DNA of 24,052 nucleotides from a virus, in the IMG/VR virus record IMGVR_UViG_3300031539_000315, positions 1 through 24,052 of that record; one strand, given 5' to 3'. The position numbers and the translations under genes are program-made. The notes beneath the pieces were generated by a model. The model saw nothing but the letters and a program-made list of their open reading frames with translations, ran no database searches and was not told where the DNA came from. Positions 1 to 24,052 of the stretch are shown piece after piece (within the stretch, counting starts at the first letter, position 1; every line of letters begins with the position of its first letter).

Positions 1-748
1 CGGCATTCAATAACCAGGCAGATTTACCTGAAGCTGTGCCTCCAGCAATGATATAAATCCTACCCATTTGAAACCCACCCCCTAAATCAGAATCGACATA
101 TTCAAATCCTGTTGGTGTTCTGTTAACTGGATCATTGCATCCAAGTATATATTCATTTATATCATAACAGTCATCTAATCCAACAATACAGGAGGATTGA
201 CTTGCAAGCATTCTTGCCCTTTCAGATCTTTTTTCAATATCATACAACTCAAAAATTATATCACCAATGTCTTCATCTATTTTAGATCCAGAGGCGTATC
301 CCAAATTATTAATTTTTTCCAACACCTTTTTCATAACTTCAATTTTAGGAGATCTCAAATGATTCCGAACTGAGACATCAATAGAGTCGACTATATTCTC
401 TAATCTTTTTTTAGATATGACTTCGGTTTTGCTTAAATGTAAACTAGTCCAAAACTGTTGTGTTGTTTGATCATCTTTCTTTTTATATACATCGGCTGAT
501 ACAGTTAAATCAAAAGCACTTTCAAATGATCTATTTTTATTTATATGTTCATCAAGAAATCCCTGTAGAAATTTTAATCTAAGTTCCTGATCCATTGGAA
601 ATAGTTTATCCCCTTCTGTATCGTTAGATACATTCCAACTAACAACTTCTAAAATTTCATTAAGCATTTCTTTACTTCTTGTTACTCCAATTGATTCATT
701 AAAACACCATTGAAAAAACGCTGTTATTTCATTTACGGATAACGACAT
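1..748 (-). CDS. DnaB-like replicative helicase, N-terminal part (runs off left edge)
   Basis: This is a minus-strand open frame starting with ATG at 748-746 and still open at base 1, so only the first 249 residues are visible. A GGAGGGG ribosome binding site lies just upstream (about 754-760). Residues 1-210 are mostly helical and I do not recognise them. Residues 211-249 read like the entry to a RecA-fold helicase domain: TPTGFEYVDSDLGGG, then a hydrophobic strand IYIIAG, then the Walker A loop GGTASGKS at 236-243. That arrangement (TGF..LD...GGG...G..-IIA-GKS) is typical of DnaB and related replicative helicases, which unwind DNA at the fork using ATP. The Walker B and arginine-finger parts are outside the window. 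It overlaps the preceding small ORF by 20 bases, so it is the last visible gene of the leftward operon. A KaiC-like or other RecA-fold ATPase is the main alternative. Confidence 0.8.
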   Translation of the reverse strand, partial: MSLSVNEITAFFQWCFNESIGVTRSKEMLNEILEVVSWNVSNDTEGDKLFPMDQELRLKFLQGFLDEHINKNRSFESAFDLTVSADVYKKKDDQTTQQFWTSLHLSKTEVISKKRLENIVDSIDVSVRNHLRSPKIEVMKKVLEKINNLGYASGSKIDEDIGDIIFELYDIEKRSERARMLASQSSCIVGLDDCYDINEYILGCNDPVNRTPTGFEYVDSDLGGGFQMGRIYIIAGGTASGKSAWLLNA

Positions 749-881
749 TCAAACCCCTCCTACCTAATACCAACGAACTTCCATCATAATCAGGATCTTC
801 TTCTAATTGTTTTTTGATAAGTTCTGTGGTTAGTTTTTTGAAATCTTCATCATTTGGATCTACTACATTGGACTTATTCAT
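729..881 (-). CDS. Small coupled ORF, 50 residues, unknown function
   Basis: A 50-residue frame starts at ATG 881-879 and stops at TGA 731-729. Its start overlaps the stop of the upstream DUF3223-like gene as ATGA (4 bases), and its end overlaps the start of the helicase-like gene by 20 bases. A GGAAG sequence about seven bases before the ATG could bind the ribosome. The protein starts MNKSNVVDPNDEDFKK, is rich in Lys, Asp and Glu, and has no membrane segment or recognisable domain. The double overlap is the main evidence that it is a real gene: it joins two stronger genes by translational coupling. It could be a small helicase partner such as a loader, but nothing in the residues shows that. 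Confidence 0.6.
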   Translation of the reverse strand: MNKSNVVDPNDEDFKKLTTELIKKQLEEDPDYDGSSLVLGRRGLNVVIRK

Positions 882-1501
882 TTTGAACTTCCAAAATATT
901 TATACTCATTAGAGTGTATATATTTATGATGTTCAATTCTAACAACTTGTAATGTTGCATTTTTATTATGATATTCAAACCATTTATTTGATAACTCCTT
1001 ATCCTTGAAACTTATTGGATCAGTATTGAATTTAACTTTCTTTATATCAATTTTATATTGTTTTATAAACTCATCTATTAAATCATTAAGTTTTATTTTA
1101 GCGTGATGAACTTGAAATACTCCATCCAAATTATTCCTTTCAACACAATCTTTTCTTAAATCTGCTAAACAATCTCTTATGGTTGTTCCACATGCTCTTC
1201 TAAAGTTTTCTAAACTATCAGGATATTTACCAGCTTTACAATTTTTCAAACTAAAATGTTGAAGGTATCCATTGTTTTTGACTACCCAAAAACATTTATT
1301 GGGATAATTTGGATGATTTTTAACTAGTATATCCCCAGACCAATCTTCAAATAGTTCATCTGCATCTGGATGTCGTTTAGCGAACAAAAAAACAAAATTA
1401 CAATCTGAACTACATAATTTCTTACCACTATCATAATCTCTTAAAATTTCAATACATTTATTATATATTTGATTAAGGCTTAACTCGGATTTCTGTTTCA
1501 T
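878..1501 (-). CDS. DUF3223/DCL-like protein with possible HNH-like C-terminal part
   Basis: The protein has 207 residues. It starts at ATG 1501-1499 with ribosome binding site AAGGGAG eight bases upstream. The N-terminal third carries the pattern HPDADELF...GDILVKNHP, then KCFWVVKNNGYLQHFSLKNC, which resembles the DUF3223 (DCL) family: a His-Pro-Asp-Ala start, a G..I.V stretch, a CFW/CF strand, then a dG....FS..KC end. The central part (FRRACGTTIRDCLADLRKDC) and the C-terminal part (VHHAKIKLNDLIDEFI, later NKWFEYHNKNATLQVV) resemble the longer bacterial and phage members of this family, whose C-terminus I recall as HNH-like with a D/H-H pair and a W..yH segment. I assign the family from this pattern; the activity is not known. 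The gene follows a 193-base untranslated stretch that could fold over its ribosome binding site. Its last bases overlap the next small ORF. Confidence 0.7.
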   Translation of the reverse strand: MKQKSELSLNQIYNKCIEILRDYDSGKKLCSSDCNFVFLFAKRHPDADELFEDWSGDILVKNHPNYPNKCFWVVKNNGYLQHFSLKNCKAGKYPDSLENFRRACGTTIRDCLADLRKDCVERNNLDGVFQVHHAKIKLNDLIDEFIKQYKIDIKKVKFNTDPISFKDKELSNKWFEYHNKNATLQVVRIEHHKYIHSNEYKYFGSSK

Positions 1502-1694
1502 TTTGATATCTCCCTTGTAGATAGTTGATGATTCATTGAGGGTAATTCTAACAAGGGTAGAAAAAGCTGGCCGAAGCTCTGTCCCCTCAATAAATCTAGT
1601 TTGGAGATTTGGACAATGGCAATACCCAAATCACAGTAAGAATACTAACAACCCCGTGGCATAAGCTCAATGAGTTGTTTTATATTAATTTGTT
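1502..1694 (-). promoter_or_regulatory. Structured untranslated leader, possible SD-sequestering pseudoknot
   Basis: This 193-base gap between two minus-strand genes contains several complementary segments. ATTGAGGG (1591-1584 read on the minus strand) pairs perfectly with CCCTCAAT (1542-1535). Inside that loop, CCCTTGT (1557-1551) pairs perfectly with ACAAGGG (1518-1512). ACAAGGG holds the ribosome binding site of the DUF3223-like gene. The order of the four segments is that of an H-type pseudoknot. The second stem can be extended by AGA/TCT past one bulged base. Further upstream are GATTTGG/CCAAATC (1606-1612 and 1626-1632) and AACAACTC/GGGTTGTT (1672-1679 and 1647-1654). The latter needs a T-G pair that exists only on the minus strand, in line with the gene direction. 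I do not recognise a known riboswitch class. I see no coding frame here. Confidence 0.4.
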
Positions 1695-2132
1695 CTAAGG
1701 GTTAGGGAAATCATCCCCTCTAAATGTTTGATTATAGTTCAAGGTTTCAATCGGTGTATTTTTAGGAATAGTTGTCTTACCAATTATACGGTCTTTTGTT
1801 GCATCTCTATTGATAGTAGTTATGCCATTTCCCATTATAACTTCATAACCAAGTTTCTCTAAAACCTTAGTTACTCTTCCTACATTATCTAATGCTTCCC
1901 ATTTACTGTGTGTAAGGCCATAATTAATATCCAATATGAAAACAACTTTCTCATCTTTTAAAATATCATATGAACCCCATGAGGTAACCCATATAAAACC
2001 GTAATTCCCGTCGTGTGCTTCATGTGCTTCAAATGCTCGATTCAAATAATGTTCGGTCCAAATAATATCTTTCTGTTGTGGAGTCCACTTACAGATCTTT
2101 TTCAATTTCTTTATATTCAGTTTAGTTTGCAC
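1695..2132 (-). CDS. Hypothetical protein, 145 residues, GTG start
   Basis: I place the start at GTG 2132-2130 because a strong AAGGAG lies seven bases before it (about 2140-2145). An in-frame TTG at 2171 would add 13 basic residues, but it has no ribosome binding site and would run through the 3' arm of a 14-bp hairpin. The protein begins MQTKLNIKKLKKICKWTPQQ and has a Trp-rich middle (FIWVTSWGSYDILKDEKVVFILDINYG), with alternating strand-like segments. Its end is polar (RDATKDRIIGKTTIPKN). No signal peptide or membrane helix is visible. I do not recognise a family. It lies between the RHH gene and the structured leader of the DUF3223-like gene, in the putative early operon. Confidence 0.75.
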   Translation of the reverse strand: MQTKLNIKKLKKICKWTPQQKDIIWTEHYLNRAFEAHEAHDGNYGFIWVTSWGSYDILKDEKVVFILDINYGLTHSKWEALDNVGRVTKVLEKLGYEVIMGNGITTINRDATKDRIIGKTTIPKNTPIETLNYNQTFRGDDFPNP

Positions 2133-2154
2133 TTCGCTTCTCCTTTTTTTAGTT

Positions 2155-2210
2155 GGGTGATGAGTTTTCAAGGAATGAAAGGATAAAAGAGAACCTAAAA
2201 CTCACCACCC
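2155..2210 (-). promoter_or_regulatory. 14-bp RNA hairpin between RHH gene and hypothetical gene
   Basis: On the minus strand, GGGTGGTGAGTTTT (2210-2197) faces AAAACTCATCACCC (2168-2155) across a 28-base loop. All 14 positions pair if one G-U pair is allowed. On the plus strand that position would be an A-C mismatch, so the repeat is best read as a minus-strand RNA hairpin. No U-tract follows the 3' arm, so it is not a standard intrinsic terminator. It may set mRNA stability or cover the region before the ribosome binding site of the downstream gene. Confidence 0.45.
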
Positions 2211-2228
2211 AGATCTTTAGTTAACATA

Positions 2229-2402
2229 CTACTTACTCCTTTCAATTTCTTTGGCAATACCTCTTCTCATCAATTCAGCCATTGTTTCCTCATTCTTACT
2301 GGACACCTCATTCAAATCTTTATACATCCTTTCTGTTATATTCAGATTGATGTATTTACCAAATCTCTTTCCTGGACCTTTATTTTTATAATCCGTAATC
2401 AC
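2229..2402 (-). CDS. Ribbon-helix-helix (Arc/MetJ-type) DNA-binding protein
   Basis: A 57-residue protein starts at GTG 2402-2400, seven bases after a near-perfect AAGGAGG, and stops at TAG 2231-2229. The sequence has the RHH layout: a basic N-terminal arm (DYKNKGPGKRFGK), a strand YINLNIT at about 17-23, helix A ERMYKDLNEVSSKNEE at 24-39, and helix B TMAELMRRGIAKEIER at 40-55. Proteins of this fold act as dimers that insert the strand pair into the DNA major groove, usually repressing their own operon. It is the first gene of the leftward block, next to the divergent intergenic region, so it is a good candidate for the early/late control switch. The operator has not been shown. Candidates are the inverted repeats in 2403-2620. 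Confidence 0.75.
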   Translation of the reverse strand: MITDYKNKGPGKRFGKYINLNITERMYKDLNEVSSKNEETMAELMRRGIAKEIERSK

Positions 2403-2620
2403 TTAGTCACCTCCTTTACAAAAAAATGTACAAACAGTCCTTTCAATAATTAATATATATAGACCCACCAATTAAAAATAACCATTTTCTTTTTTTGGTT
2501 TGTTCTAAATGTTTTAGCAATCGACCACATAAGAACCATATATCTTGTATTTAATTTTATTGGTTAACCACCCACATTTAGAACAAACAATTAGACCGAT
2601 ACGATAAGGAGACCAGCATA
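2403..2620. promoter_or_regulatory. Divergent intergenic control region with 14-bp perfect inverted repeat
   Basis: This 218-base AT-rich gap lies between the divergent blocks and must contain their promoters unless transcription enters from outside. GTTTGTTCTAAATG at 2498-2511 is repeated as its exact reverse complement CATTTAGAACAAAC at 2575-2588, with 63 bases between. A perfect 10-base palindrome TGGTTAACCA lies at 2561-2570, between the arms. Short C-rich motifs ACCCACC (2463-2469) and ACCACCCAC (2567-2575) recur beside A/T runs. No -35/-10 pair was clear enough to assign. Because the terminase genes follow at once, a packaging site could also lie here. I see no coding frame in it. Confidence 0.55.
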
Positions 2621-2971
2621 ATGGTAGAAGACTATATAACAGATGATGAAGAAGCCTTCTTGAAACTTATGAAAGAAGATGAACCATTCCTAAAAGAGGA
2701 TGGGTCAGTAGATTTAGAATTTGAACCACTAATTGAAAATCTGGATGTGACAAATGAGTTTGAAGAATTAGTATTAGAATTTGAAGCATATAGAAAACAA
2801 AAACCAAAATATCCTCTTGATCATTTGATTCTCTGTGGTAGATGTGGATATAAAGCTACAGTTGGATTTAGACAAATATTTTGTCCACGCTGTAAGGAAC
2901 ATCTCATTCGTCCAGAGGATGCAGAGAAAACAGATTGGCCTGTTAGAGTTAGGCCAAAGGGATGTTGCTAA
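2621..2971 (+). CDS. Zinc-ribbon protein, first gene of late operon, unknown function
   Basis: The protein has 116 residues. It starts at ATG 2621, nine bases after AAGGAG. The N-terminal 65 residues are very acidic and helical (DYITDDEEAFLKLMKEDEPF, then long Glu/Asp-rich stretches). Residues 72-92 form a C-x2-C-x12-C-x2-C zinc-ribbon motif (CGRC ... CPRC), and the chain ends in KGCC. A zinc ribbon after an acidic region suggests DNA or protein binding. Its position directly before the small terminase fits a role in packaging or late-gene control, but that is context only. The next gene starts 20 bases after its stop codon. Confidence 0.75.
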   Translation: MVEDYITDDEEAFLKLMKEDEPFLKEDGSVDLEFEPLIENLDVTNEFEELVLEFEAYRKQKPKYPLDHLILCGRCGYKATVGFRQIFCPRCKEHLIRPEDAEKTDWPVRVRPKGCC

Positions 2972-2990
2972 TGAAAGGAGTATCAGTTTA

Positions 2991-3350
2991 ATGCCTATGA
3001 ACACCAAAAAAACAGGAAAGATTCTAACTGATGAGCGTGGTAGATGGTTACCCGGAACAGCATCTCCAAATCAAGCAGGTCGCCCAAAATTGACAGAAGT
3101 GCAAAAATACTTGCGAAAAGCATCTGGAGAAGTGACAGAAGACCTATTCAATATTTTGATTGAAATGGCGTGTTACTCTCAAGAAGAAAGACAAGATAGA
3201 TGGGAACGTATTAAACCAGCGGAAAAGATTCGCGCTATTGAACTGTTACTTGCTTATGCACATGGTCGCCCAACACAACACGTTGAGGCAGAAATAGAAA
3301 CTAAAAGTTTAAACGTACATCTCAATGCACCTAAAGACATAGACATATAG
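2991..3350 (+). CDS. Putative small terminase subunit (DUF5681-like N-terminus)
   Basis: I place the start at ATG 2991, ten bases after AAAGGAG (2974-2980), giving 119 residues. The frame is open further upstream, but that part overlaps the zinc-ribbon gene and lacks a ribosome binding site. The N-terminal GRWLPGTASPNQAGRPKL segment matches the W.pG.SgNp.GRPk pattern of DUF5681, common in small terminase-like phage proteins. The rest is mostly helical (KYLRKASGEVTEDLFNILIE, then EKIRAIELLLAYAHGRP), ending in a polar tail. The small terminase recognises packaging-site DNA and delivers it to the large subunit. The call rests on this pattern and on lying ten bases before the large terminase gene. 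Confidence 0.7.
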   Translation: MPMNTKKTGKILTDERGRWLPGTASPNQAGRPKLTEVQKYLRKASGEVTEDLFNILIEMACYSQEERQDRWERIKPAEKIRAIELLLAYAHGRPTQHVEAEIETKSLNVHLNAPKDIDI

Positions 3351-3360
3351 GGGATAACCT

Positions 3361-4587
3361 ATGAACATAAACATTGACCTGAGTAATTTGCATGATGTAG
3401 TTAACGACTCATTCTATCCATACTTAGAAGATAGGAATCGTTACATGGTGCTATATGGTGGAGCAGGATCAGGTAAGTCTAAATTCATTGCTCAAAAAAA
3501 GATATTAAGAATTCTTGTTGGGATGGGAAAGGGTATACATCATAAGTTTTTATGTTTAAGAAAGACTCAACCATCATGCCGACAATCAATCTTTGCAGAA
3601 TTTAAAAGTATAATAAGTGAATGGAACTTGACAGACTTGGTTACTCCAAACAAGTCAGATATGTCATTCACATTTGTAAATGATTCACAGATACTAACCG
3701 GTGGCTTGGACGACCCGGAGAAACTCAAATCAATTCAGGGTATTACAGGAGTTTGGTTGGAGGAAGCAACAGAACTATCTCTTCCTGACTTTAGACAGAT
3801 TGATTTACGATTAAGAGGAAGGTCAGACAGCTATAAGCAAATAGCTATATCATTCAACCCAATTAGCAAACTTCTTTGGCCATACAATGAATTTTTCATG
3901 AATCCAAAGAGTGATGCAACAGTCTTTCATTCAACATATAAAGATAACAGATTCCTTGATAAAGAATACATTGAAAGATTAAATAAACTTGAAAGGGAAG
4001 ATCCAAGATACTATCAAATATACACCCTTGGAGAATGGGGGGAATTGAAGGCAGTTATCTATAACAACTATGTTATAGAAACAAAGTTCCCTAAGACATT
4101 TAAGGAAGTAATATATGGCATGGATTTTGGATTTAATGATCCTAGTGTTCTTCTTGAGATAGGAGAATATGATAGTGAATACTATATTAAAGAATTACTC
4201 TATCAACGGGGATTAACAAACTCTGATCTCATTAAGAAACTTATTATAATGATTCCCTTGAAGCATAGACGTAATAGAATCATCTATGCTGACAACGCCG
4301 AACCAGCACGCATAGAAGAAATAAACAGAGCTGGATTCATTTGTAAACCAGCAGACAAATCAGTCAAAGACGGGATTGACTTTTGTCGAAGAAACAAACT
4401 ACATCTTGACGCAGGAAGCAATAACCTGGTCAAAGAAATACAATCGTATAAATATAAAGAAACGAAGGATGGAGATACACTAGAAGATCCATTGAAATTC
4501 AATGACCACACCTGTGACTCTTTTAGATATGCATTGTATACGCACTATGGCAAAATAAGACCCAAAGCTCAAATAGCTTTCGCCTAA
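3361..4587 (+). CDS. terL: Large terminase subunit (packaging ATPase and nuclease)
   Basis: This 408-residue protein is the motor that translocates DNA into the prohead and cuts it. The ATPase half has Walker A GGAGSGKS at 33-40, Walker B VWLEE with catalytic Glu at 131-135, and a coupling-type SFNP at 164-167. The nuclease half has the acidic residues expected of the RNase H-like fold: D255 in GMDFGFNDP, D311 in IYADNAEP, and D382/D386 in FNDHTCDSF near the end. Length and motif order fit PBSX/phage-type large terminases. The ribosome binding site is weak (GGGGA about ten bases upstream). It follows the small subunit directly, and an HNH gene follows it. Confidence 0.95.
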   Translation: MNINIDLSNLHDVVNDSFYPYLEDRNRYMVLYGGAGSGKSKFIAQKKILRILVGMGKGIHHKFLCLRKTQPSCRQSIFAEFKSIISEWNLTDLVTPNKSDMSFTFVNDSQILTGGLDDPEKLKSIQGITGVWLEEATELSLPDFRQIDLRLRGRSDSYKQIAISFNPISKLLWPYNEFFMNPKSDATVFHSTYKDNRFLDKEYIERLNKLEREDPRYYQIYTLGEWGELKAVIYNNYVIETKFPKTFKEVIYGMDFGFNDPSVLLEIGEYDSEYYIKELLYQRGLTNSDLIKKLIIMIPLKHRRNRIIYADNAEPARIEEINRAGFICKPADKSVKDGIDFCRRNKLHLDAGSNNLVKEIQSYKYKETKDGDTLEDPLKFNDHTCDSFRYALYTHYGKIRPKAQIAFA

Positions 4588-4608
4588 CCAGGGTTCGACG
4601 GACGTAAG

Positions 4609-4654
4609 GGAGATGTTCCTTATCAACATCTCCGCCCTAATTTCTGATAAGGAG
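4609..4654 (+). promoter_or_regulatory. Hairpin with loop complementary to the HNH ribosome binding site
   Basis: GGAGATGTT (4609-4617) and AACATCTCC (4625-4633) form a perfect 9-bp stem with the 7-base loop CCTTATC (4618-4624). The loop is the exact complement of GATAAGG (4646-4652), which includes the AAGGAG ribosome binding site of the HNH gene. The RNA could therefore form an H-type pseudoknot that hides the start signal. Alternatively CCTTATCA could pair with TGATAAGG in a simple hairpin that excludes the 9-bp stem. Either form would lower HNH translation. It could also act as a weak terminator after the large terminase gene, although no long U-tract follows. Confidence 0.5.
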
Positions 4655-4661
4655 AAAAGAT

Positions 4662-4976
4662 ATGTCACGACCAGTAGGATATAAACACACTAAAGAAACT
4701 ATAAGAAAGATGCGAGAATCAAGTAAAGGAATAAAACATTCCAAAGAAACAAAAAGAAAAATAAAAAAGGCACTAAAAGGAAATAAATATAATTGGAGAG
4801 GTGGTAAATACCAGTGGTGGGCAAAAGAATTAAAAAAAATAAACACCAATTGTTGTCTTTGTAAATCAGAACGTATACTTGAAATGCATCATAAAGATAC
4901 AAACAGAGAGCATAATTACAGGGAAAACCTGATTATCATCTGTAAGGAGTGTCATGAATTTTGGCACCATACATAG
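4662..4976 (+). CDS. HNH homing endonuclease with NUMOD3 repeats
   Basis: The 104-residue protein starts seven bases after AAGGAG. Two tandem NUMOD3-type helical repeats occur at about 7-22 (YKHTKETIRKMRESSKG) and 25-40 (KHSKETKRKIKKALKG); these bind DNA and steer the enzyme to its target. The C-terminal half is a compact zinc-type HNH nuclease: C64-x2-C67, catalytic HH at 76-77, REHN at 82-85, an N-L pair at 89-90, C94-x2-C97-H98 and terminal FWHH. Such genes are selfish elements inserted between essential phage genes; this one separates the large terminase and portal genes. It appears intact. A relative lacking its N-terminus lies at 10547-10684. Confidence 0.9.
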   Translation: MSRPVGYKHTKETIRKMRESSKGIKHSKETKRKIKKALKGNKYNWRGGKYQWWAKELKKINTNCCLCKSERILEMHHKDTNREHNYRENLIIICKECHEFWHHT

Positions 4977-4985
4977 GAGATTGAT

Positions 4986-7052
4986 ATGACAACAGGATCA
5001 TATGACAATGACCCAAGATTCACAGAGGCAGTTGATAAAGCTGTTTCTCAAAAACTTGATGGATTTGCAGATGTGCTTAACAAACAGATAGCAGATCAAT
5101 TCACAAAAGATTACGCCAACACGTGGCTTAAGGCTTCCCCGCTAATGATGGGTGGGCAAGAAGCCGGTGAAATTGTAACTCCTGCTTCACAAAGCTATTT
5201 GGTTTACAAGTGTGTAACTGTAATCGCAAACAACTTCCCACAGGCGCCATTTGTGTTATTAGGAGATAATGATCAACCCATTTCAGAGAGCCATCCACTA
5301 TGCCAATTATTTAAAAACCCAAACGATACAATGTCAGGATTTGATTTATGGTCATCTACATCTACCTTCTATACGTTGTATGGTGAAGCATTCTGGTATA
5401 TTGTAAGAAGTGTGGGTCAGAATATGGGCACGACAAAGATACCGGCAGAGATTATAGTCCTTGATCCAAGGAAGATGAAAGATGTTGTATCTCCTGATAC
5501 CGGTGAATTGTTAGGATGGTTATACAATGGAAGCGTATCTCTTTCACTTGATGAAGTAATTCAATTTAAGAATACAAACCCTTACAATAGATTCAGAGGA
5601 TTGAGTCCATTGGATGCAGTTAGTATGGAAGTTAAGTCTGATTATAAAGCTTCTGTCTATCAAGCTAAATTTTTTGATAACAATGCAATACCTGGTATGG
5701 TATTACAAGTAGACAAAGATGACAACTCAACATTAGCTGAATTAAAGAAACTTGTAAGGATTTGGGAACAAGGACATCAAGGTGTGACTAATGCAGGAAA
5801 GACTGGTATCTTAAGAGGAGGTATGACATTTGAAACTGTTGGGTTAAATCAACAGGAAATGGACTATATCAATTCAAGAGCATTTACCAGAGATGTTGTT
5901 TTATCTGTATTCGGTGTTCCAAAAACACTAGCTGGATTCACAGAAGGAATTAACAGAGCAACATCAGATACACAGAAAAGAATCTTTTGGCAAGAAACTG
6001 TAAAACCACAGATGCTTCGTATGCAAGAGGTAATCAATTCACGTCTAGTCTATATAGTAACAAATGGTATCCATGGTAAGTTTGATTTCTCAAAGATCGA
6101 TGAACTTAAATCTTCAATGGAAGAGGATGTTAATGCTGCAACTACATTGTTCAGTATGGGATTCTCAAGAAATGAATTGAATACAAGATTCGGATTAGGA
6201 TTTGAGGACTCTCCAACTGGAGATGTTCAATACGTTCCAATTAACTTAATTGATACAGAAATGGAAACAGTTAAGGTTGGACAGCATATAGAACCATTAG
6301 CTGAACAAGAACCAGAAAAGGCAATTGCGTTACAAACTGTAGAAAAAAATGAGAAATCAGCTAGAATAAGTCGACAAAGACAGATATTCTTAAGACATCA
6401 AACAGGAAATGAACGAATATTGTTAGGGAAGATCAAGAAGTATTTTATCTCACAACGAACTAATGTGCTAAAGGGATTATATCAACAGAAAGAGATCTCA
6501 ATATCTGAAGTAATATCTCGTATAAATATATTTGAGAGAGAGGATGAGAGATTAATTACTGCTATAACACCAGTATTCCAAAGCATTATGGAAGATGCTG
6601 GAAAAATGTCTTTAGACTTTATCAATAATAAGATTGATTATCAACTTGATAAAGAGATTCTATTTAAAAGAGTTAATCGTTTAAAAAATATAAATAAGAC
6701 CATATTTAATCAATTGAAGGCGGAAATAGCTGTTGGTGTTGATGCTGGAGAATCAATCGACGATATCTCAACTAGAATTAAGAAGGTTTATAAGTTTGCA
6801 GACAAGAGATCATTCACGATTGCACGAACAGAGTCAAGTTCATTGATTAATGAGACTTCATTAGGAGTCTATAAGACAAGTGGTATACAATATAAACTAT
6901 GGATGACATCTGGAAATGGAAGAGCAGACCACGAAGGTAATGCAAATCAAGGACCTGTAGCAATTAATCAACCATTCCAAAATGGAGAGCAGTTTCCAGG
7001 TGATAAATCTATCAACTGTTTGTGTTCAATTCATGCAGCCATTAGTTTATAA
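4986..7052 (+). CDS. Portal protein fused to MuF-type head morphogenesis domain
   Basis: The protein has 688 residues. Residues of about 40-430 match HK97-type portals: an early ASQSYLVYKCVTVIANNF helix, the LYGEAFWYIV strand, a ..EVIQFKNTNPYNRFRGLSPLD segment, the KFFDNNAIPGMVLQVD stretch and the PKTLAGFTEGINRAT region. The portal is a twelve-fold ring at one capsid vertex through which DNA enters and leaves. From about residue 470 a helical, charged region leads into a Mu F/SPP1 gp7-like domain: ADKRSFTIARTESSSLINE near 605-622, then KLWMTSGNGRADHEGNANQG, ending in NCLCSIH (Cys 677 and 679). Portal length is usually 400-500, so the extra 200-plus residues are the fused MuF part. It starts nine bases after the HNH stop. 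Confidence 0.93.
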   Translation: MTTGSYDNDPRFTEAVDKAVSQKLDGFADVLNKQIADQFTKDYANTWLKASPLMMGGQEAGEIVTPASQSYLVYKCVTVIANNFPQAPFVLLGDNDQPISESHPLCQLFKNPNDTMSGFDLWSSTSTFYTLYGEAFWYIVRSVGQNMGTTKIPAEIIVLDPRKMKDVVSPDTGELLGWLYNGSVSLSLDEVIQFKNTNPYNRFRGLSPLDAVSMEVKSDYKASVYQAKFFDNNAIPGMVLQVDKDDNSTLAELKKLVRIWEQGHQGVTNAGKTGILRGGMTFETVGLNQQEMDYINSRAFTRDVVLSVFGVPKTLAGFTEGINRATSDTQKRIFWQETVKPQMLRMQEVINSRLVYIVTNGIHGKFDFSKIDELKSSMEEDVNAATTLFSMGFSRNELNTRFGLGFEDSPTGDVQYVPINLIDTEMETVKVGQHIEPLAEQEPEKAIALQTVEKNEKSARISRQRQIFLRHQTGNERILLGKIKKYFISQRTNVLKGLYQQKEISISEVISRINIFEREDERLITAITPVFQSIMEDAGKMSLDFINNKIDYQLDKEILFKRVNRLKNINKTIFNQLKAEIAVGVDAGESIDDISTRIKKVYKFADKRSFTIARTESSSLINETSLGVYKTSGIQYKLWMTSGNGRADHEGNANQGPVAINQPFQNGEQFPGDKSINCLCSIHAAISL

Positions 7053-7088
7053 AAAATGTAACCAGATCGTATATAGGAGCATAAACAA

Positions 7089-7928
7089 ATGAAAGACAAA
7101 ATTATCAAGTATTTAACCAAGACACCAGAAAAGCAAGAAGATAGAGTGTTGAGATTTATTGGAAGCGATCAATCTATTGATCGTGACAATGAAAGAGTTA
7201 TGGTAGAGGGTTGGGATTTAAGAAGTTATAAGAAGAATCCTGTGGTGCTTGCTAATCATAATCCATTCGATTTCCCAGTTGCTAAAACAAAGAAAGTGTG
7301 GATTGATAAAGAAAAGAAAGCATTGATGTTTGATATTGAATTTCCAACTCCGGAAGTATCCTCAATAGGCGATACTCTATATAAACTATATTCAAATGGT
7401 TTTATGAATGCCACGAGTGTAGGTTTCCGTCCTGATCGTGATAAGATTACATATGGTGATGGAAATAAACAACCAAGGGCAACATTCAATGGTCAGGAAC
7501 TGTTGGAGATTAGTTTAGTTTCAATCCCTGCTAACCCAAGAGCTCTATTGACTTCAAAGGGTGTAGAGGATGCTATTGAACTAAAGGTTATTGATGAGTT
7601 GGAATTAGATGAATTGAAATTATGGTTAGATGAAGTTCTTGATAATGAGAATACTTCTGTTTATGAATCCCCAGAAGAAAACCAACTAATCGAAGATAAT
7701 TCAGAACAAACAATTGATAGTGGTAATACGGTTCATATTCACAAATGTTCAGTTTGCGATGATGAACTAGTATGTGTAAAATGTAAAGGTTTTACTCTAG
7801 ATGAGAAGGACAGCACTTATCTAGATTATTTCTTTGAAGACTTTGATGAATCCAACGAGATTAACATCAAGAGTGACAACGAAGAAAACCCATATATAGA
7901 AGAGCTGTTAAAAATGTTAAGGAGTTAA
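7089..7928 (+). CDS. HK97-family prohead protease with acidic CxxC C-terminal extension
   Basis: The protein has 279 residues. The protease domain covers about 18-160: the FIGSDQSIDRDNERVMVEGW start, H57 in LANHNPFDFPVAK, S110 in GFMNATSVGFRP, and E140 in ELLEISLVSIPANP. These are the likely catalytic residues of this serine protease family, which matures the capsid by cutting the delta domain of the capsid protein and other head proteins. After residue 160 comes a very acidic tail of about 120 residues with the motif C220-x2-C223-x5-C229-x2-C232, ending in IEELLKMLRS. The tail may serve as scaffold, since no separate scaffold gene is visible. The capsid gene starts six bases after the stop, and its AAGGAG lies inside this gene. 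Confidence 0.92.
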   Translation: MKDKIIKYLTKTPEKQEDRVLRFIGSDQSIDRDNERVMVEGWDLRSYKKNPVVLANHNPFDFPVAKTKKVWIDKEKKALMFDIEFPTPEVSSIGDTLYKLYSNGFMNATSVGFRPDRDKITYGDGNKQPRATFNGQELLEISLVSIPANPRALLTSKGVEDAIELKVIDELELDELKLWLDEVLDNENTSVYESPEENQLIEDNSEQTIDSGNTVHIHKCSVCDDELVCVKCKGFTLDEKDSTYLDYFFEDFDESNEINIKSDNEENPYIEELLKMLRS

Positions 7929-7934
7929 AAAACA

Positions 7935-9098
7935 ATGGATAAGAAAGAAGAACTAAAAGGTTTGCTGTTAGAAGCAAATCAAGGTATACTTGATGCTGTT
8001 AAAGCACAAGGCGAAAAGGTTGATGAAACCATCGCAAAAATGAAAGAGGAAAGTGCGGAGATGAAAGCAAAGATTGAAGCTATCGAAAAAGCTCCAGCAC
8101 AGAAAGTCGCTCTTGAAGTTCCTGGTAAACCTGGGAGCAAAGTTGAAGTATATAAAGGTTACGACCTTTCCAAGCAAGGTGTTAAACTTACCTTGGTTGA
8201 TGAAGATGTTAAAAATGAAATCGCTAAAATGTTTATCAATCTGATTCAAGGCAAAGCAGCAATGAATGAAACTACAGCTTCTCAGGGTGGAAATTTAGTT
8301 CCTGAGGAATATGCTGATGCAGTATTCGCATTTGCAAGACTTATTTCTGTAGCTCTTCAAGATGCTGATGTTATTTCTACATCAACAGATAGTTTCAATA
8401 TTCCTTACGAGGATGCCGGAATCACAGTATCATGGAAAGATGAAGCAATAGCACTAGCTGCTTCTGATCCTACATTTGGTAACATCAATCTAACACCTGC
8501 TAAATTGGGTGCTTATTCAACAGCTTCAAATGAGTTGTTAATGGATAGCAAATACGATATCGTATCACGCTTGACACAACAGTTCGGAGAAAGCATTGGA
8601 CAAGAAATTGATAACCAAACATTCAACGGAACAGAATTTACAGCTCTAATTGGTGCCGCTGGTATCAACACTGTTGATTCAGGTGGTTCTGGTCCAGGAA
8701 GTATCACATTTGCAATGGCATCTGCTGCAGTTGCGGCATTGCCTTCAAATAAGATTCTTGGTGCCAAGTTCTATATGCACAGAACTTTCCTACATTACTG
8801 GAGAGCGAAAACAGATGATAACAAAATGCCTATCATCAATGTAGAAGATGGTGGATTTACACTATATGGTTATCCAGTTAGATTGGTAGAAGCTATGCCA
8901 ACAGATTCAACAGGCAGTTCTTGTATCGCTATCTTTGGTAACCTTAATTACTATGCAGTCGCACGAAGATTAGGTATAATGGGTCTAGATGTTGATCCTT
9001 ATGGAAAATTCCTTGAGTATCAAACTAGATTTAGATCTGTAACCCGCTGGGACGGAGCTCCTAAAGCAGGATCAGCTTTTGTTCAGCTTACTATCTAA
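7935..9098 (+). CDS. HK97-fold major capsid protein
   Basis: The 387-residue protein starts with a charged coiled-coil segment (about 1-60, KKEELKGLLLEANQGILDAV onward), the delta domain that acts as internal scaffold and is removed by the prohead protease. Then comes the HK97-type body: ASQGGNLVPEEYADAVFAFA near 115-135, IPYEDAGITVSWKDEA, LTPAKLGAYSTASNELLMDS, and the C-terminal FGNLNYYAVARRLGIMGLDVDP region ending in VRSVTRWDGAPKAGSAFVQL-like residues. Length and order fit the family. The main assembled product is the icosahedral shell. A hairpin after the gene could set its mRNA level. Confidence 0.95.
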   Translation: MDKKEELKGLLLEANQGILDAVKAQGEKVDETIAKMKEESAEMKAKIEAIEKAPAQKVALEVPGKPGSKVEVYKGYDLSKQGVKLTLVDEDVKNEIAKMFINLIQGKAAMNETTASQGGNLVPEEYADAVFAFARLISVALQDADVISTSTDSFNIPYEDAGITVSWKDEAIALAASDPTFGNINLTPAKLGAYSTASNELLMDSKYDIVSRLTQQFGESIGQEIDNQTFNGTEFTALIGAAGINTVDSGGSGPGSITFAMASAAVAALPSNKILGAKFYMHRTFLHYWRAKTDDNKMPIINVEDGGFTLYGYPVRLVEAMPTDSTGSSCIAIFGNLNYYAVARRLGIMGLDVDPYGKFLEYQTRFRSVTRWDGAPKAGSAFVQLTI

Positions 9099-9111
9099 TC
9101 ACCTATATAAC

Positions 9112-9139
9112 GTGGGAGATGCTTATTCAGGTCTCCCAC
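9112..9139 (+). terminator. Hairpin after the major capsid gene
   Basis: GTGGGAGA (9112-9119) and TCTCCCAC (9132-9139) form a perfect 8-bp GC-rich stem with a 12-base loop. Only TTTA follows, so it is a weak terminator at best, or an RNA processing or stability element. Many phages carry such a hairpin after the capsid gene to raise its message relative to later genes. It shares GGGAGATG with the hairpin at 4609-4633. Confidence 0.5.
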
Positions 9140-9160
9140 TTTACATAAAGGAGAAGTAAA

Positions 9161-9736
9161 ATGTCAGTAGCAGACTACGCCCTTGCAACATTGGATGAAA
9201 TAAAAGATTATTACCAGTTTGGAAATACCCGCCAGATTGATGATGACTTACTTGAGGATCTATCGGATAGAGTTACTATACTATTTCAAACCTATTGTGG
9301 TGTTAAACAGTTTTATGCAAAAGATTATACGGAATATGTTGACGGATCTGGCGATAGATATCTATTTCTTAAAAACACTCCAATAAATTCAGTTGCAGTA
9401 ATCAATGAAGATTCAGATTGGGTATGGGCGTCAGATACTACTATTGCTTCAGATGCTTATAGGGTTATAGACGAAAAGTATTTGGTGAGTAAAGAAAGTT
9501 GGTGGACCTTGGGTGAACAGAATTATAAAATCACCTACAACGCGGGTTACGCCACGATTCCGTTGGATTTAAAGCAGGTTGCGATAGAGGAAATTGTAAG
9601 GAGATATAAACATAGAAAAGATTTTGATGTAATTGCAAAATCTCAAGAAGATGGAAATGTTACTTATTCTGAAAAGGGATTGCTTACAAGCACCAAACAA
9701 ATATTAAATAGATATAGAACTCTTTGGATATTATAA
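9161..9736 (+). CDS. Head-tail connector (HK97 gp6-like adaptor)
   Basis: The 191-residue protein starts at ATG 9161 after AAGGAG. The N-terminal half is a helical LDEIKDYYQF...DDDLLEDLSDRVTILFQTYCG stretch, then a strand region with FLKNTPINSVAVINED and a hydrophobic YKITYNAGYATIPLDLKQVAIEEIVRRYKHR segment. The YNAGYA.iP.dLkqa..e.v...Y pattern is typical of gp6-like connector proteins, which form a ring below the portal and join it to the tail. Its place after the capsid gene and before the gp10-like gene agrees. Confidence 0.88.
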   Translation: MSVADYALATLDEIKDYYQFGNTRQIDDDLLEDLSDRVTILFQTYCGVKQFYAKDYTEYVDGSGDRYLFLKNTPINSVAVINEDSDWVWASDTTIASDAYRVIDEKYLVSKESWWTLGEQNYKITYNAGYATIPLDLKQVAIEEIVRRYKHRKDFDVIAKSQEDGNVTYSEKGLLTSTKQILNRYRTLWIL

Positions 9737-16298: not shown

Positions 16299-17000
16299 AT
16301 GGAAAATACCATAAATCTATATGGAAGTTTAGCCAGGAAGTTTGAAAAGAAATATAAGCACGATGCGAAAGGTATAAAGATTGCGGTTAGATCACCTCGT
16401 GAGATGATGAGTGCTTTAGAAGCTAATTTTCCTGGATTCAAAACATTGATGAAAAAGACTGGATACTATCGAGTTGCAAAAGGAGAATCATTACATAACG
16501 GTCAACAGATCAAACCAGACGAAGTCGAAATGAGATTTTCAAAAGATAGTTGGCACATGATGCCTATAGCAGCTGGATGTGGAGATAATGGATTCTTTAG
16601 TGTGGTTCTTGGAATTGTTCTTGTTGTGATTTCATATCTTGTTCCTGCATTTGCTCCAATCGGATACAAATTAGGAGCTGCTTTGATTCTTGGAGGTATA
16701 GCACAGATGCTTTCTCCAAATCCAGCAATTGGAAACTATGGTGACAATGAAAAACCTGATGAGAATCCTTCGTATTTATTTGATGGTCCTGTAAACTCTG
16801 TTGAACCTGGTTTGACAATTCCTGTAGCATACGGTCATACATTTGTAGGATCTATTTCAGTATCAGGTGGTATTCGTATAACAGATCTTTCAACAGATAT
16901 AGTTGAAGATGATGTTGACTTCCGATGGCCTCATGATGATGACGATAAATATGGTAGTGGAGACTCAGATAAATGGCCAAGCGCTCCAAGCAAGTGGTAA
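16299..17000 (+). CDS. Tail tip assembly protein, lambda I-like
   Basis: The 233-residue protein starts directly after the K stop. It begins with a ubiquitin-like strand-helix part (INLYGSLARKFEKKYK ... VRSPREMMSALEANFPGFKTLM), followed by two hydrophobic stretches near 100-145 (FFSVVLGIVLVVISYLVPAF, GYKLGAALILGGIAQML). The typical SPNP and PGLTIPVAYG segments come after, as in lambda I. The last 30 residues are very acidic (VEDDVDFRWPHDDDDKYGSG), which looks unusual. Its end overlaps the start of the first PanC-like gene by 28 bases. In lambda, I acts in tip assembly with K, L and J. Confidence 0.9.
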   Translation: MENTINLYGSLARKFEKKYKHDAKGIKIAVRSPREMMSALEANFPGFKTLMKKTGYYRVAKGESLHNGQQIKPDEVEMRFSKDSWHMMPIAAGCGDNGFFSVVLGIVLVVISYLVPAFAPIGYKLGAALILGGIAQMLSPNPAIGNYGDNEKPDENPSYLFDGPVNSVEPGLTIPVAYGHTFVGSISVSGGIRITDLSTDIVEDDVDFRWPHDDDDKYGSGDSDKWPSAPSKW

Positions 17001-17845
17001 TTAATTCATTCAGAGATGTAATTGAAAACTATGATCTAAATGATATCTGTTCGGTAACATTTGATAAGAAAAATAACTATGACAACTTTCATAAAGGACA
17101 TGATTATATATTTGATTATGCAAAGGCAAACTTCAAATATGTTCTTTTGATCTTTGCAGATCCAAGATCGTTTCCTAAATACTTCTATGTAGGCAATAAA
17201 TATAAAGAAAACAAGAAAAGTAAAGCAAACTATCTTGATTGTTACAATTGGTCTATGAAACATGATGCTGATCTGTTCTGGTGGCATGATGATGACTTTG
17301 TAAAAGATTATGCACCTGACTATAGAGATTGGGTAGATGAATGGTTCGAGGAACACGATTTATACAAATGTCTTACATCACATAAGAGAAATCAACATAT
17401 AATTGAAAGAATTAAAGCAATGATGATGTTGAAAAGAAGATCACAACTGACTTGGAATAAACTTGCTTCGTGGAAGGATGGGTATGTAAAGTTCTATGAT
17501 GCTTGGTTCATCAATAATTTCACACCAGAAAAGCATTTGTTAATTGAACCGATTAAGAATGAGAATGGAGTTTACTATTCAAGACACTATAAAGAGTATG
17601 ATAAGAACCAGATTAAGATATTCAATTTATTTGAAGAGTATGCTGAGCACATTAACAAAGATAACTTAACAGAGTTTTTCAATAGATTATATAAGAAGAT
17701 GCTTGTAAATAGAATGAAATTACAAAACATTGAGATAGCAGATGGCAAGATTATGAATGGAAAGGAAATGATCTTTTATTCATTCAAAATCAATAACATT
17801 GCTGAATCATATCCTGTTGTGAGGGAACTAAATGAGCAAAGATAA
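16973..17845 (+). CDS. PanC-like (pantothenate synthetase-like) HxGH ligase, I-J interval
   Basis: The 290-residue protein starts at ATG 16973 with GGAG about ten bases upstream, overlapping I by 28 bases and J by 14 bases. It can be laid over PanC (E. coli PanC has 283 residues) in full. HKGH at 40-43 matches HxGH; VLLIFADPRSF at 57-67 matches the VSIFVNPMQF strand; the DCYNWSMKHDADLFW stretch (89-103) matches the helix-strand before the APS segment; WKD at 167-169 matches the GEKD region; and IEPIKNENGVYYSRHY at 191-206 matches the VPI.R..DGLA.SSRN segment. PanC joins pantoate and beta-alanine using ATP. Here SSRN is changed to YSRH, so the substrate may differ or activity may be lost. The match was made by eye; a different nucleotidylyltransferase is possible. 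Confidence 0.7.
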   Translation: MAKRSKQVVINSFRDVIENYDLNDICSVTFDKKNNYDNFHKGHDYIFDYAKANFKYVLLIFADPRSFPKYFYVGNKYKENKKSKANYLDCYNWSMKHDADLFWWHDDDFVKDYAPDYRDWVDEWFEEHDLYKCLTSHKRNQHIIERIKAMMMLKRRSQLTWNKLASWKDGYVKFYDAWFINNFTPEKHLLIEPIKNENGVYYSRHYKEYDKNQIKIFNLFEEYAEHINKDNLTEFFNRLYKKMLVNRMKLQNIEIADGKIMNGKEMIFYSFKINNIAESYPVVRELNEQR

Positions 17846-20800: not shown

Positions 20801-22664
20801 TCCTTATGATTTATTTGGAATTGGTATATCAAGTCAACAAGGAACCGGAACACCAACTCAAATTATATATGAAAATGTTGATCTAGAATTATCACAATCA
20901 ATTATTATAACAGATTCGCTAGACACGACTTCAGAGCAAATCATTGAACTGTATGATGGTATACTTGATTCGGGTGGAGTTGTATATCCAGATACTGTTG
21001 ATAGTTGGATTAAATATGATATGGCAATTGAAAACTTCATCAATGGAGTTCAAGTATGGTCAGACTCTGCTGTTCAATGTTGGTTTGAATTAGAGAAGGC
21101 AGATGGAACCAAAACATATTATGGAGGAAATGGATCTCACGCTCTTGTATCTTCAGAAGGACAAGATAGATTAACACAGTATGCAAGTCTTGCTTTGGCA
21201 AAAACAAACTATTGGCAGAAGACTACATCTGGATATGAGCATGCATTTCTACCAAATGGTGTGGTTGCAAAGTATTGCACAATTTATATGACAGCACCAA
21301 GCGATTATCAAATCTATGAATTAGTATTCAGAAGAATTGTAATTGCTGAAGATATAGCAACAGAGAATCTATCTGCAATATCTGCGGATATAGGTGTAAT
21401 CACAGCAGGATCAATTCAATCACCAGACTATTCAGCAACAGAGGGTATGATAATTGATCTAGACAATAAAGATATAAATATTCGTAAATCTTCAGTTGAC
21501 ATCTTAACATATGATGGTGACACAGGAGATTTGAGTATAAGAGGTGTAATCACAGCGTTAAGTAGTTCAGATCTTCCTTGGTCATCTGTATCAGGTGAAG
21601 CTAAACCGGAAGACTATGCTACAGATAATAACAGTTGGGAACATCCAAGCGATCAAACAAAGATTGATGGTGGTCAAGTTTATATTGGTTCTACATTGAA
21701 ATTAGCTGAAGGTGGAATAGCAGAATTTGGAAATAAGAATGTTATCATTGATACAGCTGGTAACCATGGATCAATTATTGTAGCTGTTGATGGTGGACCT
21801 GAAGCTGGCGACTATTGTGTGCTTTCAGATGGTGATCTTGATTTCTATATCAAAGTAGGAGAAGAACACTTTCCTTATAAATCATTGACCAGAGTTGAGG
21901 GTGGAACAGCAGCTAATGGAACTTGGACTACAATTCCAGGATACTTTAAGAATGCTCCAAGAGTAATTGTAACACCTGCTTCATTAAGAACTTATGATAA
22001 TAGATATCCAACTCAATCACAATCATTGAAGATGGAAGCTACACAAGTTCAAGAAACGTCACTTGGTTCAAAGCAATGGAAATTTTATACACAGGCAACT
22101 CTTGAATTGAGTGAAGGATCAACAGGCGGTCTCCCTATAAACGATACGGAATCAAGAAGCGTTTATGCTCTATCATCATGGGCAACATTAACTCAAAGTC
22201 CAACTGTATCTCTTGTTGGAACTACAAGATCAATAACTGTTAATTTTCAAACAGATGGATATACAAGAAAGTTAATTCGAGCATCTAGAACAACAACAGA
22301 TAAAGCTGGACACACAACATACTATCCAGGTTTAACTTATTTCTATCGTGCAGCATATGTTATTAGATTGTGGGTGTATCTTGTTGGTTCTGGTTGGGCA
22401 TACATTGATAAGTATATCAATCCTGGTAGAGGATCATCGCCTGCACCACAGTCATTCTCTATGACTTATAGTCATCCAACATATAATTTATCACAATTCT
22501 ATTCTCAATGGATTTATAGTGGATTGAATAGTTATTCTACAATAAATACTGCACAATCTACATATACAAGAGAGTTGTTGACTTGTGTAAGTTATTCATC
22601 AGATCAGATTTCAACATCAATTCTAGAAACAGGAAATCTGAATTGGTTAGCAATAGGAAGTTAA
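17832..22664 (+). CDS. Tail tip attachment / central fiber protein, lambda J-like
   Basis: The 1610-residue protein starts at ATG 17832, overlapping the PanC-like gene by 14 bases. The N-terminus is typical of J: a Gly-rich start (RGRGGGGGGEAYTPVEAP), then STARIVDVLCEGLIYGP. Central parts include PAWVLFDMINNERFGLG, the R..ALAVINHLCSVFRGYP segment and a second hub-like part (LYDPNKYTFVEDG at about 650). Three fibronectin type III-like domains follow at about 680-775, 785-900 and 930-1015. The last 600 residues include a stretch near 1190-1200 (TENLSAISADIGVITAGSIQ) common before tip fiber ends, then a variable receptor-binding part. J forms the trimeric hub and fiber at the tail tip and defines host binding. 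Lambda J has 1132 residues, so this one is long. Confidence 0.93.
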   Translation: MSKDKQIVRGRGGGGGGEAYTPVEAPNNLKSTSTARIVDVLCEGLIYGPANGGVGDGDGLKWKKSTYFNEVPVVGESGTINFTGVTLDGRCGYSMGTSDSLNKAYPLTDFDSIDNVTVVNTQIKKETGEYTLVITDPDVDTVYITLEFPVMLQQEDNGDTNPTTVKYHVDVIGDDGAGDVMHWITAAGEGTLTGKNVSPFRRQHQLDGLNTTAYLWGTGPYHIKIYRDTDDTDTVKKQNAMYLYSYTESKSVKMSYPDTAVAGVSLISDKFGGSVPARAYNIYGRYMWIPSNYTPDIENGGGTYSGVWDGEFKYGYCSNPAWVLFDMINNERFGLGEDVDPALVDKWKLYTIGQYCDEPVDFIERTRLPGGGYSSDSTSSEPRFTFNGVISDRRQALAVINHLCSVFRGYPIWTSGFVSFDQDTPKDITRIANQSNVKDGLFEYEGTAKSSRTTAVNVSYNDMDQFGKPTIVTIHDEDGIIRYGYNPIDIFCFGCTSKNEAIRRAKYILYTDLNQTELVSFTGGIEWADGIPGEVIGIQDKDYVSSVNQSGRVVSGTTTSITIDRPMEIEVGETYTLYCADNTAATVFEKILTNDATTTTTLTWSGAVAEAPSPGQTWAVTKSSVTDVRQFQITNVKELTMGSEYEVSAILYDPNKYTFVEDGNIIEVPPASNLPIGALDPPSNLQVQPFTYTDGDKKNRKYGALISWVASPDSRTQDYQIQIQKTSEAAFTLDRTASLSYTWRDVPAGTYSIKVRATSATGNSEWILYPDFTMVTNVKDLAAPTNLRTIDEPATDEFNGPDCEIEWDASVGAAYDGSTVVYISDGTDTNILELDTTSSVGYDTVFGYKIEVYKVDNTLLRTWVTEDGETLQYIYTFNMNNDDNAGSPIRQIKFKVYAFNKNGTLSPPATLTASNPQPTMVGQTPTVYSKPTYLDVTWSHVLDNDLSFYRVYYDSTSTLTYTQYIDVPYPITEAEVFGLNFGTTYYIEIVPYDLFGIGISSQQGTGTPTQIIYENVDLELSQSIIITDSLDTTSEQIIELYDGILDSGGVVYPDTVDSWIKYDMAIENFINGVQVWSDSAVQCWFELEKADGTKTYYGGNGSHALVSSEGQDRLTQYASLALAKTNYWQKTTSGYEHAFLPNGVVAKYCTIYMTAPSDYQIYELVFRRIVIAEDIATENLSAISADIGVITAGSIQSPDYSATEGMIIDLDNKDINIRKSSVDILTYDGDTGDLSIRGVITALSSSDLPWSSVSGEAKPEDYATDNNSWEHPSDQTKIDGGQVYIGSTLKLAEGGIAEFGNKNVIIDTAGNHGSIIVAVDGGPEAGDYCVLSDGDLDFYIKVGEEHFPYKSLTRVEGGTAANGTWTTIPGYFKNAPRVIVTPASLRTYDNRYPTQSQSLKMEATQVQETSLGSKQWKFYTQATLELSEGSTGGLPINDTESRSVYALSSWATLTQSPTVSLVGTTRSITVNFQTDGYTRKLIRASRTTTDKAGHTTYYPGLTYFYRAAYVIRLWVYLVGSGWAYIDKYINPGRGSSPAPQSFSMTYSHPTYNLSQFYSQWIYSGLNSYSTINTAQSTYTRELLTCVSYSSDQISTSILETGNLNWLAIGS

Positions 22665-22665: not shown

Positions 22666-23259
22666 ATGAAATATGTTGATAATTTAAATGATTTCTTATA
22701 TATAGTTAAAGATGATCCGTGTGCAGTTATTGGACTTCATAAGAAACATCCGAAGTTAAGTCCATTTCATGCTGGACATATTTATTGCATTAAAGAGATG
22801 CTTAAACTGAAGGTTGATTATACAGTAGCTTTAATGTGGGATAGTGAAGATGGAATGAAATATATTTACAATAGAATGATAAATGAAAGACCCCTCAATT
22901 TAAATTATATGAAAAACATACTTGAAAAAATAGGAATTGATGTCTTTTATTATCTAAAACACGAAGATTTTATGAATAATTGGGTGCCAAGAATAGATTT
23001 CGATTATTATCATAAATTTATTGATGAGGTAATAACGAAGGAAAACTATCTAAAGACTCTTGACATTGCACATTATTTTCCAGCATATGTATTTGATCAA
23101 TTCTTTAATCGAAAGTATTGGATTGGATCTTCAAAGGATGTTCAAAGAAAAACAATGAAAGACTTTTGTGAGAAATATACAAACACAACAATGGTTATAT
23201 TAAGAAGGATAAAAAATCAAATGGGGCAAGTTTATACAAGTAGTGAAGGAGTAATTTAA
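22666..23259 (+). CDS. Second PanC-like HxGH protein, truncated form after J
   Basis: The 197-residue protein starts one base after the J stop, with AGGAAG in the J end as ribosome binding site. It shows the PanC layout up to the last active-site motif: HKKHPKLSPFHAGH with HAGH at 35-38, strand VDYTVALMW at 50-58, helix-strand NYMKNILEKIGIDVFYYL at 80-97, a GSSKDVQRK segment at 154-162 placed like GEKDFQQ of PanC, and IKNQMGQVYTSSEGVI at the end, placed like I.R..DGLALSSRNGYL. It keeps SS (192-193) but stops there, lacking the 90-residue C-terminal domain of PanC. The two phage proteins differ strongly from each other, so this is not a recent copy. The SSKDVQR stretch could also be read as an ISSTxIR-type motif of other HxGH transferases. 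Confidence 0.65.
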   Translation: MKYVDNLNDFLYIVKDDPCAVIGLHKKHPKLSPFHAGHIYCIKEMLKLKVDYTVALMWDSEDGMKYIYNRMINERPLNLNYMKNILEKIGIDVFYYLKHEDFMNNWVPRIDFDYYHKFIDEVITKENYLKTLDIAHYFPAYVFDQFFNRKYWIGSSKDVQRKTMKDFCEKYTNTTMVILRRIKNQMGQVYTSSEGVI

Positions 23260-24052
23260 ATGGCAAAATATATCACAGACATCATTCAGGATATTATTGA
23301 TGAGGTAGATTCAACAGCATTAAATGCAACCATTCAGGAATATCTTGAGACTCCTGCTAATGGTTATATGGACTCTACGGCAACTTCAACATATTACAAT
23401 GATGGCACAGCGTATGTTCCAATTGATGCAACCACTTATGGATATATAACTCTTGAAGGATATACAGACGGACAAGAATATGTTCTTCCACCTACATTAA
23501 CAGTTGAACAATGGAAGGCATTATATCTTGAGCAAACATACAATGATGCAATGATTTCAATTGAAAAGATTGCATTTCTAGATACAAATTCACCTAACTA
23601 TCCTATGACAGATTATGAGGATATCTTATTCAACTTTGATACAGCTGATTCATTAAACTATGCTATAACTCCAGTTTCTGATGAAGTCTATCTTGAATAT
23701 AGATATGCAGTAGCACAGAAGATTGATGGTTTCTTCTTTCAAGCTGGTGAGGATGGAGCACAAGTATATGGAGCAGACTCAACTGCATCTGTAATTCTTG
23801 CTGGATATATATCTTATTCAAATAATGAAACAGATTGGGTGTATGTTAAGAATGGAACTCTAAATCAAGCAGGCGATAGTGTTGGTATAATTACAACAGA
23901 TGAGGCAGAAGCCAAAGCAGCTCCATTCATATTTGATTTTCCTACAGGATTTGAATTTCGAGAAATTGTAAACATTCTATTTAACAATATATCTGTTGAA
24001 GCCAAATTCTGGAGGTTCTATCCTGTTGATCTTCTTACATATCTTACAAGTA
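23260..24052 (+). CDS. Downstream tail gene, N-terminal 264 residues (runs off right edge)
   Basis: An open frame starts at ATG 23260, directly after the TAA of the second PanC-like gene, with GAAGGAG about eight bases upstream, and remains open to the window end. It begins MAKYITDIIQDIIDEVDSTA and is rich in Tyr, Thr and Asp, with strand-like segments such as YGYITLEGYTDGQEYVLPP, VYLEYRYAVAQKIDGFFFQA and SVILAGYISYSN. I recognise no family. Its place after J and its composition suggest a tail fiber or another distal tail part. There is no signal peptide or membrane helix in the visible part. Confidence 0.8.
   Translation, partial: MAKYITDIIQDIIDEVDSTALNATIQEYLETPANGYMDSTATSTYYNDGTAYVPIDATTYGYITLEGYTDGQEYVLPPTLTVEQWKALYLEQTYNDAMISIEKIAFLDTNSPNYPMTDYEDILFNFDTADSLNYAITPVSDEVYLEYRYAVAQKIDGFFFQAGEDGAQVYGADSTASVILAGYISYSNNETDWVYVKNGTLNQAGDSVGIITTDEAEAKAAPFIFDFPTGFEFREIVNILFNNISVEAKFWRFYPVDLLTYLTS

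Follow-up and report, generated by a model that had tools for sequence, protein, structure and literature searches.

Two putative HxGH nucleotidylyltransferase-like proteins flank gene J, the receptor-binding gene of a lambda-like siphophage

Is the protein encoded between tail genes I and J of this virus a pantothenate synthetase (PanC), and what could such a protein do in a tail-tip operon? The window, by which we mean the whole stretch of 24,052 bases that was analysed, is an IMG/VR virus record and holds the head and tail module of a siphophage in lambda order: terL, portal, protease, MCP, tail genes, tape measure, M, L, K, I and J. The names portal and protease, like those given to the smaller genes for head and tail, are putative, being our own reading of gene order and sequence; gene L was matched by Phage_tail_L (E 3e-42) and gene K by NLPC_P60. 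The left part of the window is nearly identical to the contig L002 (window 1-9302, 99.9% identity), and the contig L003 corresponds to window 665-7822 at 99.6% identity. This part also carries a DUF3223 protein to the left of the terminase genes (window 878-1501, minus strand, E 1.4e-9), which is very AT-rich (GC 0.26), and a small NUMOD3/HNH-type homing-endonuclease-like ORF in the gap between terL and portal (window 4662-4976, plus strand, Pfam NUMOD3 E 1.9e-9). The features around J are listed below, where P0001 and P0002 denote the two proteins under study and L296 is a related contig described later.

16299..17000, plus strand: tail assembly protein I, neighbour of P0001, with a C-terminus about 35 aa longer than that of gene I in L296
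16973..17845, plus strand: P0001, HxGH nucleotidylyltransferase-like protein of 290 aa, inserted between I and J; weak profile matches; not present at the I/J junction of L296
17832..22664, plus strand: host-specificity protein J, matched by FNIII-A_GpJ (E 8.8e-23)
21609..22664, plus strand: C-terminal block of J, 69% identical to L296 and running on into P0002
22666..23259, plus strand: P0002, HxGH protein of 197 aa, same family as P0001 by homology; ortholog in L296

The ORF of P0001 shares 28 nt with the end of gene I (stop at 17000) and 14 nt with the start of J (ATG at 17832). The frame, both overlaps and the motifs named in the initial annotation, including IFADPRSF at residues 60-67 and NENGVYYSRHY at 196-206, were all found in the sequence. 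The same annotation did not count the gene among the expected members of a lambda-type tail module, and the genomes compared agree with this: an annotated gene between I and J was seen in none of the eight annotated phages with a related J, nor in L296. One of the eight, P106B, has a gap of about 370 nt between I and J, with J annotated from a later start. A second HxGH protein, P0002, had been overlooked; it adjoins J downstream. The GC contents of P0001 (0.31) and P0002 (0.28) are both lower than those of I (0.38) and J (0.37). Promoter-like sites that might provide the two genes with a promoter of their own were no commoner than in shuffled sequences (35 vs. 46.7). The additional C-terminal stretch of gene I (window 16900-17000, plus strand, about 35 residues relative to L296) is acidic and overlaps the start of P0001; this extension may be a by-product of the insertion of P0001. 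Directly 3' of P0002, a frame of at least 264 aa (window 23260-24052, plus strand) stays open to the window end, showed no Pfam match at E <= 0.01 and is likely the next gene of the tip operon.

P0001 and P0002 were compared with each other by BLASTP, which gave E = 0.002, and by local alignment, which spans nearly all of P0002 (Z 6.5, none of 5000 shuffles as high). The similarity persisted when the HxGH octet was removed (Z 4.9, 1 of 5000 shuffles). By these tests the two proteins are homologous and are therefore paralogues, one on each side of J. At 27% identity they have HxGH, KD and K-x3-G in common with PanC-like spacing, at the following positions.

17090..17101, plus strand: HKGH motif of P0001, residues 40-43, facing HAGH in the alignment with P0002
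17474..17479, plus strand: KD pair of P0001, residues 168-169, in the place of the PanC GEKD and identical in P0002
17555..17581, plus strand: K195-x3-G199-x3-S203 of P0001, in the place of the PanC R-x3-G-x3-S; K and G are the same in P0002, and S is replaced by T
22768..22779, plus strand: HAGH motif of P0002, residues 35-38, retained in the L296 ortholog
23134..23139, plus strand: KD pair of P0002, residues 157-158, identical in P0001
23212..23238, plus strand: K183-x3-G187-x3-T191 of P0002, matching K-x3-G-x3-S of P0001

All four columns predicted from PanC (K, D, K and G) are identical between the two proteins, for which the expectation at 27% identity is about 0.005. P0002 stops just past the K-x3-G motif and has no counterpart of the C-terminal part of P0001; lacking the residues that follow this motif, it could be inactive.

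Profile searches place both proteins in the neighbourhood of one superfamily. In Pfam and NCBIfam, the sole matches of P0001 were CTP_transf_like (E 0.23, 87 residues) and cyt_tran_rel (E 0.013), those of P0002 were HIGH_NTase1 (0.02), PRK13670 (0.004) and cyt_tran_rel (0.034), and those of the L296 ortholog were HIGH_NTase1 (0.097), FAD_syn (0.1), a RibF-type model (0.071) and, more weakly, SAM_1 (0.27). None of these matches of three sequences in two libraries lies above a curated cut-off, and all but SAM_1 agree on one superfamily. In all three proteins the HxGH motif lies near the N-terminus, after the first strand. Because nearly all of the weak matches are to HxGH nucleotidylyltransferase families, P0001 and P0002 very probably belong to this superfamily, as judged from sequence. 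The best family match of P0002 is to TmcAL/HIGH_NTase1 (PF05636, PRK13670) around PFHxGHxY, but it covers only 25 residues (33-57) of a model of about 400 positions. AlphaFold models built on shallow inputs had a pLDDT of 33.5 for the pair and 46.7 for P0002 alone, and a PADLOC search gave no match.

Membership of the PanC family is a different matter. P0001 had been described as following pantothenate synthetase from end to end, but when aligned globally with a profile built from 13 PanC sequences it gave Z = 0.65, with 262 of 1000 shuffles as high, and Z = 0.20 once the HxGH part was removed; P0002 gave a weak Z of 2.4 (12 of 1000 shuffles). Global alignment was used since free-end semi-global alignment gave trivial end matches. 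The comparison with PF02569 that the initial annotation had proposed yielded no match of P0001 at E <= 10. A PanC HMM scored P0001 at 1.8 bits and ranked NadR (8.0), CitC (6.9) and CoaD (5.7) above it, so P0001 is no nearer to PanC than are other superfamily members. The above-chance similarity of P0001 to PanC is confined to residues 38-69, comprising HxGH and IFADPRSF, and its best pairwise match, E. coli PanC (Z 5.2), covers these residues only. The resemblance of IFADPRSF to the PanC IFVNPxQF is seen in P0001 only.

The likeness to PanC lies instead in length and in the order and approximate spacing of the motifs. The spacing is HxGH-(124/118)-KD-(25/24)-K-x3-G-x3-[S/T] in P0001/P0002, against 111-115 and 26 in PanC. 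The layout HxGH..KD..[KR]x3Gx3[ST] with PanC-like spacing, a pattern defined post hoc after P0001 and P0002 had been seen, occurs in 13 of 13 PanC sequences and in 0.04-0.05% of shuffled tails, and was not found in CitC, NadD, RibF, NadR or CoaD. A PanC-like active-site layout is thus plausible for both proteins. The residues of the PanC GEKD and SSRN motifs diverge, the E of EKD being W in P0001 and S in P0002, and SSRN being YSRH and TSSE, respectively. In PanC structures, two active-site glutamines contact pantoate. The active-site positions of the M. tuberculosis enzyme include Asn69, Gln72 and Gln164 (PMC5772511); their counterparts in P0001/P0002 are D/D, S/D and V/R, so that both glutamines are missing. 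Neither panB nor panD was found beside P0001, and none of the papers searched mentioned a PanC-like protein together with phages. The identity originally proposed for P0001 is supported at the level of the superfamily, through concordant weak profile matches and a homologous second copy, and not at the level of the PanC family, given the absent PF02569 match, the chance-level alignment, the low PanC-HMM score and the missing glutamines. P0001 and P0002 are probably not vitamin-B5 synthetases. Some phage records searched do contain genuine panC, for example that of Microcystis phage MaAM05 (L082:2950-3819). That gene likewise represents PanC-related chemistry in a phage record, but its identity to E. 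coli PanC is 43% and panB lies nearby, neither of which is true of P0001. The MaAM05 record also carries sufB and sufC, and the panC region could be either a metabolic cassette or host DNA included in the record.

Relatives of the pair were sought in several collections. None of P0001 was found in the viral_contigs, phages, genome_contigs and plasmids collections, among 38 records with relatives of TerL or among 50 with relatives of TerL and J; a single-sequence search found none of P0002, and a flanking ORF of this family was seen at 0 of 88 J-bearing loci. These searches depend on short exact peptide matches or BLAST-level similarity, and the absence is only that strong. A search with the aligned pair, P0002 first, returned one relative, the 7.6-kb contig L296 from metagenome 3300031565. 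In L296, genes K, I and J are directly joined, the stop of I overlapping the start of J, without P0001, and an ortholog of P0002 lies directly 3' of J, where the contig end cuts it at residue 132. Identity to L296 is 36% for K, 42% for I, 50% for J, 69% for the J C-terminus and 77% for P0002 (up to residue 132). P0002 and its ortholog differ with dN 0.136 and dS 0.584 (dN/dS of about 0.23), indicating purifying selection. Within J, the first 1300 or so residues are 34-60% identical and those that follow 62-90%; from this rise and the 77% of P0002, the conserved block comprises the J C-terminus together with P0002. If P0002 were inherited jointly with the receptor-binding end, the observed pattern would result; coming from two genomes, it is no more than suggestive.

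Two further candidates were rejected. A weak match of P0001 in L016 (E 0.03) falls in a portal-like ORF and was taken to be chance. A degenerate DNA pattern of the three motifs retrieved 104 stretches; those in frame proved to be PPAT-like proteins (PPHKGH) and a DNA polymerase, outside the P0001/P0002 family. L016 (IMGVR_UViG_3300029825_000532) is a terminase and portal contig that carries, at 3372-7418, ORFs recognised by eye as type IV CRISPR-like (a Csf1-like zinc protein, and Csf2- and Csf3-like RAMP proteins) and a CysH-like protein. The motif scan also detected a PPAT/NMNAT-like family of short phage proteins (L102, L107, L154 and L161), about 200 aa long, in which GKFKPPHKGH is accompanied by an ISATQMR-type motif.

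Taken together, our preferred explanation is that P0001 and P0002 are a strongly diverged, homologous HxGH-fold accessory pair flanking the receptor-binding J of a lambda-like siphophage, P0001 being facultative and P0002 tied to the J tip; we judge its chances of being right as about even. It was weighed against four others. That the motifs arose by chance on an unrelated fold is very unlikely: the lack of any match above a curated cut-off would fit this, as would sequence and profile searches of the PDB, which matched no HxGH chain and only unrelated proteins, but three sequences in two libraries gave concordant matches to one superfamily, and the position of HxGH is the same in the two paralogues and the L296 ortholog. 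It is rather doubtful that P0001 is a genuine diverged PanC-type ligase, adenylating pantoate or another carboxylate and joining it to an amine, with P0002 as a shortened copy. Motif order and spacing, which in both proteins fit PanC and not CitC, NadD, RibF, NadR or CoaD, and the top pairwise match to E. coli PanC speak for such a ligase; the profile, alignment, HMM and active-site results given above speak against it.

Assignment of the pair to the NMN-adenylyltransferase (NadR-like) side of the superfamily, with a role in NAD+ metabolism or counter-defence, is improbable in our estimate. P0002 has the HxGH-Y-x-I start, could be aligned for 113 residues with the adenylyltransferase domain of NadR (Z 5.2, 3 of 3000 shuffles) and was given 8.6 bits by a NadR-family HMM, which gave the L296 ortholog 11.4 bits, but P0001 scored 0.5 bits, that is, no match. 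The NadR start GKFxPLHxGH is approximated in P0002 only (KLSPFHAGH), and the ISATxIR-type signature and a kinase domain are absent from both proteins. NadR and NadM are frequent in phages, where HIGH-superfamily nucleotidyltransferases have been reported for NAD+ salvage (PMC9503650); however, no NadV, Nudix or kinase partner was seen within the window, and a tail-tip operon is an unusual location for salvage genes. Other phage members of the HIGH superfamily have been proposed to make NDP-sugars and are tied to sugar modification (PMC7824862); P0001 and P0002 share with them the superfamily and the occurrence in a phage genome, but no glycosyltransferase or sugar kinase was seen within this window. 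The two proteins might instead have retained the fold without its chemistry and serve as components of the tail tip or as assembly factors specific to J. The position of the genes inside the tip operon, the conservation of P0002 together with the J C-terminus and its lack of the region after the third motif are in line with such a role, which we nevertheless consider unlikely, as HxGH, KD and K-x3-G are kept across paralogues of only 27% identity, more easily explained by catalysis or at least nucleotide binding, and P0001 is dispensable in L296.

Under the preferred explanation of a diverged accessory pair, P0001 and P0002 would use HxGH and the lysine of KD to bind a nucleoside triphosphate, and late in infection they may activate a small molecule, transferring a nucleotidyl group to it or forming an adenylate. 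Pantoate is not the expected acceptor because the two PanC active-site glutamines are missing. Since P0002 appears to be linked to the J tip, the product might concern attachment: either J or the tip would be modified, or a group on the host surface would be changed via an activated precursor. P0001 would then contribute a related activity that the phage can do without. A more specific version is possible but has a low probability in our view: a two-gene nucleotidyltransferase cassette specific to the receptor-binding locus. In it, P0002 would be passed on with the C-terminus of J and would adapt J, the tip or the receptor by chemical means; an exchanged host-recognition end would thus come with a modifying enzyme of its own, and P0001 would add a second, optional activity.

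HxGH enzymes that make NAD+ or sugar nucleotides are already known in phages, but a homologous HxGH pair flanking gene J was found in no other record examined. If P0002 truly travels with the J tip, the locus would offer a direct test of whether host-recognition exchange modules come with modifying enzymes of their own. Should the two proteins lack catalytic activity, they would illustrate how a metabolic fold can be co-opted for tail assembly.
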